A stretch of 64,000 nt of DNA from an uncultured Pelagibacteraceae bacterium. Lineage in GTDB: Bacteria > Pseudomonadota > Alphaproteobacteria > Pelagibacterales > Pelagibacteraceae. The notes under the pieces were generated by a model, which was not told where the DNA came from, ran no database searches, and was given only the letters and a program-made list of their open reading frames with translations. Made by a program: the position numbers and the translations under genes. The stretch is from NCBI GenBank assembly GCA_902567235.1, contig CACFLX010000001.1, positions 1-64,000 on the forward strand, in the 5' to 3' direction. Every line of letters starts with the position of its first letter. Position 1 is the stretch's first letter. Positions 26,132 through 36,877 of the stretch are shown in pieces.

Positions 26132-27016
26132 TTATTTTACAAGAAAATTCACTTTTTTATTTGATAGATTTAAATGAATTTTTTTATATGAACCAAAATT
26201 ATCTCCATCAATTTGAACTGGTATCAAATCATTTCCATCAATAGTAATGTTTTGTGAATAAGTAGTAATAACATTTTTGTTTTTACTTAAATCACCATTA
26301 AGAATTATTAAGAATATAGAATATAATAAACTGATCCTAGTCAAATCCTTAAAAATATAGGTGACTAATTTATCTTCAAAAATATTTGTTTTATTTATTT
26401 TATGATGTCCGGCGTAATATTTGGTATTTGAAGATAATATCCAGTCTGCTTGATAAAATTGCCCATCAAAAGTTACATTTAATTTTTTATTATTCATAAA
26501 TAAGAAATATTGAAAACCTTTGATGCCGAAAATAATTTTACCAAGAATTTTTTTAATTTTTGAATTAATTGAATGAACAATTTTTGCATCCCATCCTATA
26601 CCAGCCATTAAAAAGAAATAATTCTCATTAATTTTTACAAGATTAGAGGATTTATAATTATTAGAAACCAACACATTTACTATATCATCAACTTTTTTAT
26701 TCATTGATAATTCAGCTTGAAGTAGATTTGCAGTGCCAGCAGGAATATAACCTATAGCAAAATCGTCTTTAAAATTAAAATCATTGTTAATTAATTCATT
26801 AATTGCAAAAGAAACTGAACCATCTCCACCAGCTACTATTAGTCGATCATAATTTTTTTTATTAAAATCTTTAAAAATTTTCTTAGCTTGACTTATTGTA
26901 TTGGTCTCAAAGTAGTCTACAGAATTGTTTTTTTTTAATTTAGATAAAACTTTATTTATGAACTTTGATTTTCTTCCAGCAGAAGAGTTCAAATTGTAAA
27001 TTAAACAATACAACAT
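26132..27016 (-). CDS. Diacylglycerol/lipid kinase family protein
   Basis: GGDGSVSFAINEL catalytic motif, IPAGTANLLQ; DAGK_cat-like fold. Confidence 0.85.
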   Translation of the reverse strand: MLYCLIYNLNSSAGRKSKFINKVLSKLKKNNSVDYFETNTISQAKKIFKDFNKKNYDRLIVAGGDGSVSFAINELINNDFNFKDDFAIGYIPAGTANLLQAELSMNKKVDDIVNVLVSNNYKSSNLVKINENYFFLMAGIGWDAKIVHSINSKIKKILGKIIFGIKGFQYFLFMNNKKLNVTFDGQFYQADWILSSNTKYYAGHHKINKTNIFEDKLVTYIFKDLTRISLLYSIFLIILNGDLSKNKNVITTYSQNITIDGNDLIPVQIDGDNFGSYKKIHLNLSNKKVNFLVK

Positions 27017-27035: not shown

Positions 27036-27053
27036 TTTAACAAATTTGTAACA
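27036..27053 (+). promoter_or_regulatory. Pho-box-like direct repeat upstream of the plcP-like gene
   Basis: TTTAACA-AATT-TGTAACA, 11-nt period, same motif as upstream of pstS. Confidence 0.65.
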
Positions 27054-27082
27054 TTCAAATGAAATAAGAATTACATGATTCG

Positions 27083-27100
27083 TGTTACAGTTGTGTTAAA
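27083..27100 (-). promoter_or_regulatory. Pho-box-like direct repeat upstream of the lipid kinase gene
   Basis: Reverse strand TTTAACA-CAAC-TGTAACA, oriented toward the minus-strand kinase. Confidence 0.62.
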
Positions 27101-27114
27101 AAAAGGTTTTTTAA

Positions 27115-27927
27115 ATGCCTAATATACTTAAATACAAAAGTATATTTATTTCTGACGTGCATTTAGGTACCAAGGGATGTCAGGCAAATAAACTTTTAGA
27201 GTTTTTTAAAAACTCAAGATCTGAAAATCTTTATCTTGTAGGAGATATTATAGATATTTGGGAAATGCAAAAAAAATTCTATTGGCCACAGGAACACAAT
27301 GATGTAATTCAAAAAATTTTAAGAAAAGCAAGACATGGTACTAAAGTCTTTTACATTATGGGTAATCATGACGAAATGTTAAGAAAATTTATTCCAATGC
27401 ATTTTGGTGACATTCATATGGTTAATAGAGTAATTCATGAAACAAATGCTGGAAAAAAATATGTTGTTGTCCATGGTGATGCTTGGGATGGTGTTATGAA
27501 ACATGCTAAATGGTTATCTAAACTTGGATCAATAGCCTATAATTTATTATTAAAATTGAATGTAATAATTAATTTTTTTAGAAGGTTGAGAGGAAAAGAA
27601 TATTGGTCTCTTGCAAAATTTTTAAAGTATAAAGTCAAAAACGCAGTCAAATATATTGGTGAATACGAAAAGACAGTCTCAGATTATGCAAAAAGAAAGA
27701 AATTTGATGGAATTATTTGTGGCCACATCCATCATGCCGAGGATAGAGATTTTAATGGGGTTAATTATTTAAATTGTGGAGACTGGGTTGAATCTTGCAC
27801 TGCATTAGCCGAAAATTATGATGGTAGTTTTGAAATATTATATTGGGACAAAATAAGAGAACAATATTTAGATAATAAAGAAATAATTAAACCAATTAAA
27901 ACCGAAGAATTAAAAAAAGCTTCATAG
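27115..27927 (+). CDS. plcP: Metallophosphoesterase of the LpxH-like/PlcP (phospholipase C) type
   Basis: ISDVHLGT, VGDIIDIWE, MGNHDE, VVHGDAWD, CGHIHHAE; paired with an Agt-like glycosyltransferase and a lipid kinase. Confidence 0.72.
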   Translation: MPNILKYKSIFISDVHLGTKGCQANKLLEFFKNSRSENLYLVGDIIDIWEMQKKFYWPQEHNDVIQKILRKARHGTKVFYIMGNHDEMLRKFIPMHFGDIHMVNRVIHETNAGKKYVVVHGDAWDGVMKHAKWLSKLGSIAYNLLLKLNVIINFFRRLRGKEYWSLAKFLKYKVKNAVKYIGEYEKTVSDYAKRKKFDGIICGHIHHAEDRDFNGVNYLNCGDWVESCTALAENYDGSFEILYWDKIREQYLDNKEIIKPIKTEELKKAS

Positions 27928-27930
27928 TTA

Positions 27931-28938
27931 ATGAAAATTTTAATAGCGACAGATGCATATTTTCCACAAGTAAATGGTGTCGTAAGAACCTTACATGAAA
28001 CAGGCAATGTATTAAAAGAACAAGGTCATATTATAGAATATATTACACCACATTTATTTTTAACTTTTCCGATGCCGAAATATAACGAAATTAGGTTGTC
28101 TATAAATGTATGGCCAAGAGTTGGTAGTTTAATAAAGAAAATAAAACCTGATGCAATACATATTGCTACCGAAGGTCCTATAGGGACGATGGCAAGAAGA
28201 TATTGTTTAAAAAATAATCTAAAGTTTACTACGAGTTTCCATACAAGATTTGATAAATATCTAAAACTTTACTTTCCTATTATACCAGCAAAATGGGCTG
28301 AAAAATTCTTAGCAAACTTTCATAACAAGGCCGAGAGAATTTTAGTAACAACAGAATCCATGAGAAAAGAATTAATCGATATAGGTATAGATAATAATAA
28401 AATGATTACTTGGACCAGAGGGGGAAATCATGGAGCCTTTAAGAAACCTAAAAAAATTGAATTACATCACAAAAGACCAATTTGGATTTATGTTGGAAGA
28501 GTTGCAGTTGAAAAAAACATAAGAGCTTTCTTAGAATGTGATTTAGAAGGTACAAAAATAATAATAGGAAAAGGACCCGATTTAAAAAAATTAAAAGAAG
28601 AATTCCCTAAAGATATTTTTTTAGGAGAAAAAACAAATGGTGCACTTGCATCATATTTTGCATCTTCTGATGTTTTTGTATTCCCTAGTAAAACAGATAC
28701 ATTTGGAATTGTAGTTACTGAGGCTTTAAATTGTGGTACTCCTGTAGCTGCTTATCCTGTTCCAGGTCCTAAAGATATATTTGAAGGATCCAAAATAAAT
28801 TGTTTAGATAATGATCTTAAAGTTTCAGCCCATAAAGCTTTGAAAGTTGATCGAAATGATTGTCTTGAATTTGCAAAAAAATTTACTTGGGAAGAAACAG
28901 CAAAAATATTTTTTAATAATATTTCACCAAATCATTAG
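27931..28938 (+). CDS. GT4-family glycosyltransferase, candidate Agt-type glycolipid synthase
   Basis: PQVNGVVRTL, FHTRFDKY, YVGRVAVEKNI, SKTDTFGIVVTEAL; adjacent to plcP-like gene. Confidence 0.82.
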   Translation: MKILIATDAYFPQVNGVVRTLHETGNVLKEQGHIIEYITPHLFLTFPMPKYNEIRLSINVWPRVGSLIKKIKPDAIHIATEGPIGTMARRYCLKNNLKFTTSFHTRFDKYLKLYFPIIPAKWAEKFLANFHNKAERILVTTESMRKELIDIGIDNNKMITWTRGGNHGAFKKPKKIELHHKRPIWIYVGRVAVEKNIRAFLECDLEGTKIIIGKGPDLKKLKEEFPKDIFLGEKTNGALASYFASSDVFVFPSKTDTFGIVVTEALNCGTPVAAYPVPGPKDIFEGSKINCLDNDLKVSAHKALKVDRNDCLEFAKKFTWEETAKIFFNNISPNH

Positions 28939-29002: not shown

Positions 29003-30148
29003 ATGGAATATTTCATCATTCTACTTATAGTTGTTATAGTTTATCTCCTATATTTACTTAATCAAAAAAAAAACAAATCAATAAATACCGCTACAATAAT
29101 TAATAAAAGAGAAGAAAAAACTAAAAGAGTAATTATTGATGAACTTGAGGATCAGTTTTTTGCATTAAATAAATTTAACATAATTAAATATGCCAATCCA
29201 AGTGCATTAAAAAGATTTGGAAGTAGTTTAATTGATAAAAACATTTCTTCTGTAATTCGAAAACCAGAATTAATAGAAAATATTGAAAAAGCTATAATTG
29301 AAAATAAAACAAAAAATATTGATGTTGAAATAGACTTGCCATCATATCAATTTTATAAGATTTATATCATCCCTGGCCCAACTCATTTATTTACTGAACC
29401 AGATTCTGTTGTGTTATTTTTTAAAGATTTTACTGAAATTACAAAAGCACAAAAATTTAAAACTGATTTTGTAGCCAATGTAAGCCATGAATTAAGAACA
29501 CCTTTAATGGCAATCAAAGGATCTTTAGAAACTATTGAAGGTCCAGCGTCTGATGATGAAAAGGCTAAAAAAAAATTTATGAAAATAATCATTGATCAAT
29601 CAAATAGAATGGAAAATTTAGTTAATGATCTTTTAATACTCACAAGAATTGAATTAGAAGAACATATAAGGCCAAGCACTTTAGTTGATATAAATGATCT
29701 TTTCAAAACAATCATCAGTAATTTTGAGATTATTTTAAAAAAAAAGAAATTAAACATTAATTTATCTCTCGCAAATCCAACAATTGTTATTGGAGATAAA
29801 AAAAAATTACAAACTGTTTTTTCTAATCTTTTAGATAATGCAATTAAGTATTCAAATGAAAACAAGTCTATTTTTATATCAAGCAATATTAGCGATGGTA
29901 AATTGTTAGAAAAAAATTTTATGATCAGTGTTAAAGACGAAGGTGTTGGCATTCCTCAAAGATTTATTTCTAGAATTACAGAAAGATTTTTTAGAGTAGA
30001 TCTTGAACAAAGTAATAAGGTTGGTGGAACTGGTTTAGGATTAGCTATTGTTAAACATATAGTTACTCAACATCGTGGACACTATGAGATTCTAAGTGAG
30101 GAAAACCAAGGAACTGAAATTCAAATTTATTTGCCAGCGAAAACTTAA
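29003..30148 (+). CDS. phoR: Phosphate regulon sensor histidine kinase PhoR
   Basis: VSHELRTPL, GGTGLGLAIVKHI; upstream of pstSCAB-phoU-phoB. Confidence 0.88.
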   Translation: MEYFIILLIVVIVYLLYLLNQKKNKSINTATIINKREEKTKRVIIDELEDQFFALNKFNIIKYANPSALKRFGSSLIDKNISSVIRKPELIENIEKAIIENKTKNIDVEIDLPSYQFYKIYIIPGPTHLFTEPDSVVLFFKDFTEITKAQKFKTDFVANVSHELRTPLMAIKGSLETIEGPASDDEKAKKKFMKIIIDQSNRMENLVNDLLILTRIELEEHIRPSTLVDINDLFKTIISNFEIILKKKKLNINLSLANPTIVIGDKKKLQTVFSNLLDNAIKYSNENKSIFISSNISDGKLLEKNFMISVKDEGVGIPQRFISRITERFFRVDLEQSNKVGGTGLGLAIVKHIVTQHRGHYEILSEENQGTEIQIYLPAKT

Positions 30149-30238: not shown

Positions 30239-30847
30239 ATGGTTAAAATATTCAAAAATATTTTGATTTTTGCTTTTTTGTTAAGCTCTATAACAACAAG
30301 TGTTTTTTCTAAAGATATCACAACATTATTAAGAAATCAGCAACTTACAGTTTTTGATATTGGAATTTTTAGATTAGAAGCAGATTTAAAAACTTCATAT
30401 CCTTCTATAAAAGATCATTTAGAAGTTACTGAAGCTGAATTTTATACAGACGTAGTTACCTCGTATTCTAAAAATTCAATTGATTTAATTGTTTCTGTTC
30501 CTATGAATAAAAATCTCAAGAAGGAAAATTATTTTTCAGATTCTTTTAGATGTAGGAATATTTTTAATTCTGTAAGAGATTTTTTATTGAGGAATGAGAA
30601 TTTGAGTAATTATAGATATACTATGGCTACAAGTTATTTAACCTCTATATTTTCAACCCCAAGCTCATGGCCTAGCTGGAGATATGATGAAGAAATTAGA
30701 GAAGAATTAGTAAACTTAGTAAAACTAGAAATAACTTTACGTCCAAGCAATGAACTCGCTCTTAATGAACAGGTAAACCCTATTTCATGTATTGGTGGCC
30801 TAGAAACTGATATTGATCAGATAATTATATCAAAAAAATACAACTAA
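30239..30847 (+). CDS. Uncharacterised secreted protein between phoR and pstS
   Basis: N-terminal signal-peptide-like MVKIFKNILIFAFLLSSITTSVFS; no family recognised. Confidence 0.7.
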   Translation: MVKIFKNILIFAFLLSSITTSVFSKDITTLLRNQQLTVFDIGIFRLEADLKTSYPSIKDHLEVTEAEFYTDVVTSYSKNSIDLIVSVPMNKNLKKENYFSDSFRCRNIFNSVRDFLLRNENLSNYRYTMATSYLTSIFSTPSSWPSWRYDEEIREELVNLVKLEITLRPSNELALNEQVNPISCIGGLETDIDQIIISKKYN

Positions 30848-30858
30848 AAAGTTACCTT

Positions 30859-30887
30859 TTTAACAAAAGTGTAACAATTCTGTAATA
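30859..30887 (+). promoter_or_regulatory. Pho-box-like triple direct repeat upstream of pstS
   Basis: TTTAACAAAAG-TGTAACAATTC-TGTAATA, three 7-mers at 11-nt period. Confidence 0.72.
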
Positions 30888-30956: not shown

Positions 30957-31988
30957 ATGAAAAAACTAACTATAGTAATTGCTTCTTTAGTTGCACTTTC
31001 AATTGCAACTGTTGCTCAAGCAAGAGATCAAATTAAGATAGTTGGTTCTTCTACGGTATTCCCTTATGCAACAGTTGTTGCTGAAAGATTTGGTGGTACA
31101 GGTTTTAAAACTCCTGTAATCGAGTCTACTGGTACTGGTGGTGGAGCTAAACTATTCTGTGCTGGTGTAGGTGAACAACATCCAGATATTACAAACGCAT
31201 CAAGAGCTATGAAAGATAAAGAAAAAGCTCTATGTAAGAAAAATGGTGTAAATGAAATCGTTGAGATCGTAATTGGTAACGATGGTATTACATTAGCTTA
31301 CAGCAAAGATGCAAAACCAGTAAACTTTACTAAAGAACATTTGTATTTAGCACTAGCTGCTCATACAGTTGTTGATGGTAAATTAGTTCCAAATATTTAT
31401 AAAACTTGGGACCAAATTGACTCTAGTTTACCAAAACAAAAAATTTCAGTGATGATCCCACCAGGAACATCAGGAACTAGAGATGCTTGGAATTCTTTAG
31501 TAATGAAAAAAGGTATGACTAAAGAAGCTAAAGCTCTTTATAAAGCTGGTTTTGAAGCTGGAAATAAAAAATACAAAAAACCTCAAAAACTTTACAGAGA
31601 AGATGGTGCTGCTATTGAAGTTGGAGAAAATGATAGTTTAATCATCCAAAAGTTAACTCAAGATAAAGATATGTTTGGTTTCTTTGGTTTCAGTTATTTC
31701 TTAGCTGCAAAAGATAAATTACAAGCAGCAAGTATTGATGGTGGACAACCATCATTGAAGTCTATTCAAGACTACAGTTATGCTGTTGCTAGACCTTTAT
31801 TCTTCTACGTGAAAAAAGCTCACGTTGGAGTAATTCCAGGCTTACATGAGTTTGTGAAAGAATTCACAACAAAGAAAGCTATTGGAAAAGGTGGTTACCT
31901 AGCAGACATTGGTTTAGTGCCATTAGACTCTAAGTTGTATAAAACAACTAGAACTAATGCTACCAAACTAGTTGCTATGGGTAATTAA
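30957..31988 (+). CDS. pstS: Phosphate ABC transporter substrate-binding protein PstS
   Basis: IKIVGSSTVFPYATVVAE, ESTGTGGG, PPGTSGTRDAW. Confidence 0.96.
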   Translation: MKKLTIVIASLVALSIATVAQARDQIKIVGSSTVFPYATVVAERFGGTGFKTPVIESTGTGGGAKLFCAGVGEQHPDITNASRAMKDKEKALCKKNGVNEIVEIVIGNDGITLAYSKDAKPVNFTKEHLYLALAAHTVVDGKLVPNIYKTWDQIDSSLPKQKISVMIPPGTSGTRDAWNSLVMKKGMTKEAKALYKAGFEAGNKKYKKPQKLYREDGAAIEVGENDSLIIQKLTQDKDMFGFFGFSYFLAAKDKLQAASIDGGQPSLKSIQDYSYAVARPLFFYVKKAHVGVIPGLHEFVKEFTTKKAIGKGGYLADIGLVPLDSKLYKTTRTNATKLVAMGN

Positions 31989-36193: not shown

Positions 36194-36877
36194 ATGTCAG
36201 CCCATGTTTTCATAGCTGAAGATGAAGCATCAATTGTTGCTTTGTTAAAGTACAATCTTGAAAAAGAAGGTTATAAAGTTAGTCATTCAGAAAATGGAGA
36301 AGATGCTCTTAAACAAATAAAATTAAAACAGCCAGATTTAATATTAATGGATTGGATGTTACCTGAATTATCTGGTGTTGAAATTTGTAAAAATTTAAAA
36401 AAAAATAATAAGTTTAATGATATTCCTGTCATTATGTTAACTGCAAAAGGGGAGGAAGAAGACAAATTAAAAGCATTTGATACTGGTGCAGATGATTATG
36501 TAACTAAACCTTTTAGTCAAAAAGAATTGAATGCTAGAATTAAATCTTTATTGAGAAGATCTAAGCCTCAATCATCATCAGACATTGTAGAATTTACTGA
36601 TTTAAAAATAGATCGGATTACAAAAAGAGTTTATAGAAAAGATAAAGAAATTACTTTAGGTCCAACTGAATTTAAATTATTAGATTTTTTTATCAAAAAT
36701 CCAAAAAGAGTTTATTCAAGAGAACAACTCCTAAATAATGTTTGGGGGGAAGATATATATGTTGAGTCTAGAACAGTAGATGTCCATATAAGAAGATTAA
36801 GACAAGCAATTAACATACAAAATACAAAACCTTTAATTAGAACAGTGAGATCAGCTGGTTATTCTTTAGAATCTTGA
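36194..36877 (+). CDS. phoB: Phosphate regulon response regulator PhoB
   Basis: Receiver plus winged-helix; LLNNVWGEDIYVESRTVDVHIRRLRQ. Confidence 0.93.
   Translation: MSAHVFIAEDEASIVALLKYNLEKEGYKVSHSENGEDALKQIKLKQPDLILMDWMLPELSGVEICKNLKKNNKFNDIPVIMLTAKGEEEDKLKAFDTGADDYVTKPFSQKELNARIKSLLRRSKPQSSSDIVEFTDLKIDRITKRVYRKDKEITLGPTEFKLLDFFIKNPKRVYSREQLLNNVWGEDIYVESRTVDVHIRRLRQAINIQNTKPLIRTVRSAGYSLES

Follow-up and report, generated by a model that had tools for sequence, protein, structure and literature searches.

Two face-to-face predicted Pho boxes pair a divergent diacylglycerol kinase gene with plcP-agt in SAR11

Introduction

Why should a short intergenic region between two divergently transcribed lipid genes carry two copies of one direct repeat, each pointing toward a different gene? 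The question is raised by a locus in the genome of an uncultured Pelagibacteraceae bacterium, within a stretch of 64,000 nucleotides analysed here as a whole and referred to as the window (positions 1 to 64,000 of contig CACFLX010000001.1). A sequence-only reading of the window had proposed that the two repeats are Pho boxes through which PhoB co-regulates a kinase gene and plcP-agt, and that their sequence might define a lineage-specific Pho box. We considered whether the repeats could be chance matches in AT-rich DNA, which protein might bind them, which genes they might serve, and how far they depart from the canonical Pho box.

Results

The intergenic region lies in a phosphate island. On its left, dagK (26132–27016, minus strand) encodes a predicted soluble lipid (diacylglycerol) kinase of the YegS/DgkB type, scoring 78.1 bits against PF00781 (cut-off 23.6) and 104 bits against TIGR00147, under the cut-off of 118.65. 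The translation has the DAGK_cat domain and the GGDG motif, as GGDGS, and diacylglycerol is its presumptive substrate, assigned by family alone. On the right, plcP (27115–27927, plus strand) encodes a predicted metallophosphoesterase-type phospholipase C of lipid remodelling (PF00149) with up to 100 percent match to Pelagibacteraceae single-cell genomes. It is followed after 3 nt by agt (27931–28938, plus strand), for a GT4-type glycolipid glycosyltransferase (PF13439 and PF00534); the two form a plcP-agt lipid-renovation operon in the gene order of HTCC7211 (PMC4796936). Further along the plus strand are the sensor kinase gene phoR (29003–30148; TIGR02966, 278.7 bits, under the cut-off of 334.2), a gene for a 202-aa protein, pstSCAB, phoU and phoB. 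By gene order, pstS (30957–31988; PF12849) leads a pstSCAB-phoU-phoB operon, and phoB (36194–36877; TIGR02154, 329.6 bits, cut-off 296.2) encodes the presumed box binder. The 202-aa protein between phoR and pstS (30239–30847) has no Pfam or NCBIfam match.

The 98 bp between dagK and plcP carry both repeats, at the positions and on the strands previously reported. The plus-strand copy, TTTAACA-AATT-TGTAACA (27036–27053), ends 61 nt before the plcP ATG at 27115, and the minus-strand copy, TTTAACA-CAAC-TGTAACA (27083–27100), ends 66 nt before the dagK ATG at 27016. Each consists of two 7-nt direct repeats with a 4-nt gap, an 11-bp period, and each reads toward its own gene. Their likeness to the repeat upstream of pstS holds as well: an exact copy stands at 30859–30876 on the plus strand, and with a third unit, TGTAATA, at 30881–30887 it makes up a predicted three-unit Pho box, TTTAACA-N4-TGTAACA-N4-TGTAATA (30859–30887), with counterparts before most pstS genes across the order.

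In AT-rich intergenic DNA, such repeats could be coincidental. The worry is fair only for loose matching, because with three mismatches allowed the window holds 33 matches while 32 are expected from shuffles, which is no excess. The exact pattern TTTAACA-N4-TGTAACA, in contrast, occurs three times in the 1,126,983-base assembly, only at the pstS, plcP and dagK promoters, against an expectation of 0.05 per genome under a second-order Markov model, or about 4e-6 to 7e-6 per 98-bp region. Relaxing the pattern within this genome yielded no further regulon members. Among one-mismatch matches, three lie inside non-phosphate coding sequences and a fourth (L005) is intergenic with no phosphate link; TKTAAYA pairs beyond the known sites numbered five, compared with four for the control, and were mostly in coding sequence, with one before aroQ.

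The genome-wide scan proposed in the sequence-only reading ties the motif to phosphate genes both in this genome and across the order, with a background level where pstS is absent. We counted relaxed matches in 148 Pelagibacterales genomes: the mean per genome is 2.87 with pstS and 0.54 without it (Mann-Whitney p = 1.8e-15, a generous value for related genomes, although the contrast still holds within the genus, at 3.02 versus 0.83, p = 4e-8), whereas the reversed-pattern control gives 0.73 and 0.66. Of the exact sites read in 101 congeners, almost all precede pstS, plcP, dagK, a phoR-type kinase gene or pstC; the exceptions are a site within an unrelated coding sequence (L008), one before a phoR remnant (L010) and one before a membrane protein. 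With this link to pstS and the cross-species conservation described below, the chance explanation is refuted, its probability being practically nil. These sites are very probably Pho boxes.

The same data bear on the identity of the binder. OmpR-family regulators have binding to 10–11-bp direct repeats in common, so another OmpR/PhoB-family regulator, or possibly a nucleoid protein, might occupy the sites in place of PhoB. The abundance of the motif, however, tracks the presence of pstS over the 148 genomes, and the element is shared with the pstS and phoR upstream regions, which makes a binder other than PhoB very improbable. PhoB itself is encoded in this genome, and its recognition helix, YVESRTVDVHIRRLRQAI, is near-identical to YVEDRTVDVHIRRLRKAL in E. 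coli PhoB (structure 1gxp).

As a separate observation, an exact Pho box at L288:1019–1036 on the minus strand (G057:C25:2718–2735) stands 36 nt before the gene of a 321-aa membrane protein beginning MEQTFSLWMVLGFLFAAYSVVANDSVQTLGTW. A look-alike of this protein (L010:1663–2628) has no Pfam or NCBIfam match; the protein could possibly be a phosphate permease of an undescribed family.

Both boxes are conserved. The complete upstream stretch is available from 78 relatives. In relaxed form, the plcP-facing box occurs in all 78 of them (69 exact) and the dagK-facing box in 77 (31 exact); the first unit of the latter is TTTAATA, a weaker match, in most relatives. Over 51 distinct intergenic sequences, 24 of the 28 motif columns are invariant, compared with 37 of the 70 elsewhere in the region (p = 0.003). 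Where motif columns do vary, the sixth position alternates between C and T, the second changes from G to T, and the first position differs once, in the dagK box; the C/T and G-to-T changes recur as degeneracy between the units of pstS boxes.

The 29-bp spacer between the facing boxes (27054–27082), free of indels in the same 51 sequences, probably houses the core promoter elements for both directions. Within it, TG at 27060–27061 and ATAA at 27064–27067 never vary, which fits a candidate extended -10 element of plcP, TGA-AATAAG (27060–27068, plus strand), 9 nt past the second repeat. The distance from the second repeat to the -10 element is likewise 9 nt at E. coli phoA. A Pho box is expected to stand in for the -35 element, about 10 bp ahead of a -10; a conserved TGnRATAA is found at plcP and at phoR of relatives lacking plcP (TGA-GATAAT, at the same spacing from the box), whereas in the dagK direction the 51 sequences show no -10 that is as clearly conserved at such a distance. 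A further invariant block, ATGATTCG (27075–27082), adjoins the dagK box. It opens a 15-codon upstream frame that extends across the start codon of plcP (27075–27122), and the tail codons of this frame vary non-synonymously between relatives; it is probably not coding.

The plcP box might also serve phoR. The 64-nt gap between agt and phoR contains no Pho box, and in relatives without plcP at this locus (L016, L021) the same promoter is found immediately ahead of phoR, so that phoR is probably read from the plcP promoter here. Around the boxes but outside the 7-mers, the plcP and phoR promoters agree at 75–80 percent of positions, compared with 15–50 percent between the plcP promoter and those of dagK or pstS. 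An insertion of the plcP cassette at the phoR promoter may have brought phoR under the plcP box. Two loci appear to be scars left when the phosphate island was gained or lost. In both, a Pho box and phoR-type promoter lead into a truncated phoR start, of 25 codons at L033:1500–1620 (G029), where it adjoins the cassette, and of 5 codons at L010:1500–1555 (G019). Beside the latter, where phoR persists only as this remnant, L010:1146–1478 encodes a membrane diacylglycerol kinase of the DgkA type (PF01219), a different kinase type from that in the window.

The suggestion of a lineage-specific Pho box stands only in part. Across the order the AT-rich form TGTAA(C/T)A does dominate, with a gradation into canonical TGTCA(T/C) among its members, and TGTAAC units are found in other alphaproteobacterial families. 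Nearly all of the 39 pstS upstream stretches reaching the promoter, from two families of the order, have 11-bp-spaced T(G/T)T(A/C)A(C/T) repeats, and some genomes have canonical-looking TGTCATA or TGTCACA units there. Compared with CTGTCAT, the core retains TGT-A and has A instead of C at position 4. Because of the intermediates within the order, the TGTAAC-type units in other families and the near-identical PhoB helix, the box is, on sequence grounds, best described as an AT-shifted TGT(C to A)A(T/C) form of the usual Pho box with the 11-bp period kept. In the other family of the order, the pst contig carries repeated pairs of TGTAACATTAGTGTAATA and TGTAATATTATTGTAATA, some 5 kb from each other (G102:C2:191809–196902, G110:C4:105617–110711 and similar); they are likely further Pho-regulon promoters.

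The divergent arrangement extends well beyond SAR11. An even sample of Alphaproteobacteria contains 96 plcP-bearing genomes; in at least 45 of these, from 31 families, the gene next upstream of plcP encodes a divergently oriented PF00781 kinase, 45 being a lower bound. We scored these 45 regions for TGT(C/A)A(C/T) pairs, requiring 10 or more matches in 12 positions. At the 11-bp offset, 27 regions have repeats toward plcP and 26 toward dagK, compared with 5–11 and 3–12, respectively, at eleven other offsets, so that only the 11-bp spacing is enriched; dinucleotide shuffles at the same threshold give 3.2 and 4.9 per direction. Thirteen genomes (12 of the 31 families) have a box toward each gene, versus 0–3 at other spacings, in a count that was strand-resolved and limited to non-overlapping boxes, since near-palindromic units score on both strands. 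In 8 of the 45 regions no box scored 10 or more in either direction. In most of these regions, each box lies on the side of the gene that it faces, whereas in SAR11 and a few others the boxes are crossed, probably as a result of compression to 98 bp. Because the divergent kinase gene recurs and the repeats are enriched toward both genes, the SAR11 pair is, as far as these comparisons indicate, a 98-bp compressed copy of a class-wide, predicted PhoB-controlled dagK-plcP(-agt) module.

One could still argue that only the plcP-facing and pstS boxes activate, dagK not being a Pho gene, and that PhoB on the minus-strand site in the plcP 5' leader acts as a roadblock that damps plcP at high PhoB~P. 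The minus-strand box does lie downstream of the predicted plcP start, only about 15 nt before the plcP ATG, and the missing clear -10 element of dagK would suit this idea. However, the repeat has a direction, and it reads toward dagK. In the class as a whole, boxes toward dagK are as frequent as those toward plcP, and where the intergenic region is wide they often sit at its dagK end, out of reach of the plcP leader. In Pseudomonas putida BIRD-1, moreover, both PlcP and DagK increase at phosphate depletion and are termed PHO-dependent (PMC5082522). We consider such damping improbable. The proposed co-regulation of the kinase gene and plcP-agt, with PhoB binding as a prediction, gains from the conservation of both boxes and from the class-wide signal in homologous divergent regions, and control of both genes by PhoB is highly likely.

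Discussion

The sites, their conservation, their association with Pho genes and the class-wide divergent pair with 11-bp repeats on both strands allow a model to be proposed. Very probably, both repeats are operators of phosphorylated PhoB, one for plcP-agt (and probably phoR), the other for dagK, with the three enzymes setting the diacylglycerol (DAG) pool. We infer PhoB binding, induction by starvation and a role of DagK as a DAG valve. Upon phosphate starvation, PhoR would phosphorylate PhoB, and PhoB~P would bind head-to-tail on the 11-bp repeats, substituting for a -35 element and drawing RNA polymerase to the nearby -10. From the plus-strand box, plcP-agt and probably phoR downstream would be transcribed, and from the minus-strand box, dagK. 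PlcP would remove phospholipid head groups and release DAG, Agt would turn DAG into sugar lipids, and DagK would phosphorylate surplus DAG to phosphatidic acid.

The two boxes might even constitute a single bidirectional promoter fired by PhoB. Since they face each other over 29 bp of fixed length, the core promoters could overlap and the polymerase might start only one way at a time, such that competition would set the ratio of plcP-agt transcription (DAG-making and DAG-using) to dagK transcription (DAG-recycling). We regard this elaboration as rather unlikely, and yet the compact face-to-face promoter is a candidate for promoter competition.

A sequence-defined, testable Pho box could be valuable for a very abundant marine group that is hard to manipulate, because Pho regulons might then be read by pattern from SAR11 single-cell genomes. 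Across Alphaproteobacteria, DAG kinase likely belongs to PlcP lipid renovation as its standard third member, which predicts active DAG recycling while membranes remodel in phosphate-poor oceans. In the searchable main texts on the PlcP pathway its role is barely mentioned, and none of those on plcP contexts describes a divergently oriented kinase served by a separate Pho box. DAG kinase looks like a regular, overlooked partner in the membrane-saving swap of phospholipids for sugar lipids.

How does this locus compare with known systems? Sebastian et al. 2016 (PMC4796936) predicted Pho boxes before plcP clusters, including that of SAR11 strain HTCC7211, which has the plcP-agt operon and the proposed regulator as found here; the main text gives no SAR11 box sequence and mentions no diacylglycerol kinase. 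The box is thus a variant of a known element, and its plcP half was predicted earlier. What appears to be new is the divergent kinase as a conserved, predicted PhoB-controlled partner, together with the compact face-to-face promoter. In the phosphate islands of HIMB59, which include DGK, LpxH-like and RfaG-like genes, a DAG kinase likewise shares the island with other lipid genes and pst/phoBR; there, DGK was classed as having no direct phosphate function, and the word promoter is absent from the main text (PMC10734472).

A Pho box is defined as two 7-nt direct repeats with a 4-nt gap, with a consensus that varies among species (PMC4415409). The SAR11 box resembles the E. coli type (CTGTCAT-N4-CTGTCAT) in its two 7-nt direct repeats, the 11-bp period, its place before Pho genes and the head-to-tail arrangement expected for PhoB, but differs in its AT-rich TGTAA(C/T)A core, T for G in the first unit and the three units at pstS. 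The PhoP box of Bacillus subtilis is TT(A/T/C)ACA at an 11-bp period. The TTAACA/GTAACA core of SAR11 comes near it in sequence and period, yet the PhoP box belongs to Firmicutes, and the resemblance is probably due to AT-rich genomes rather than membership in that family of sites.
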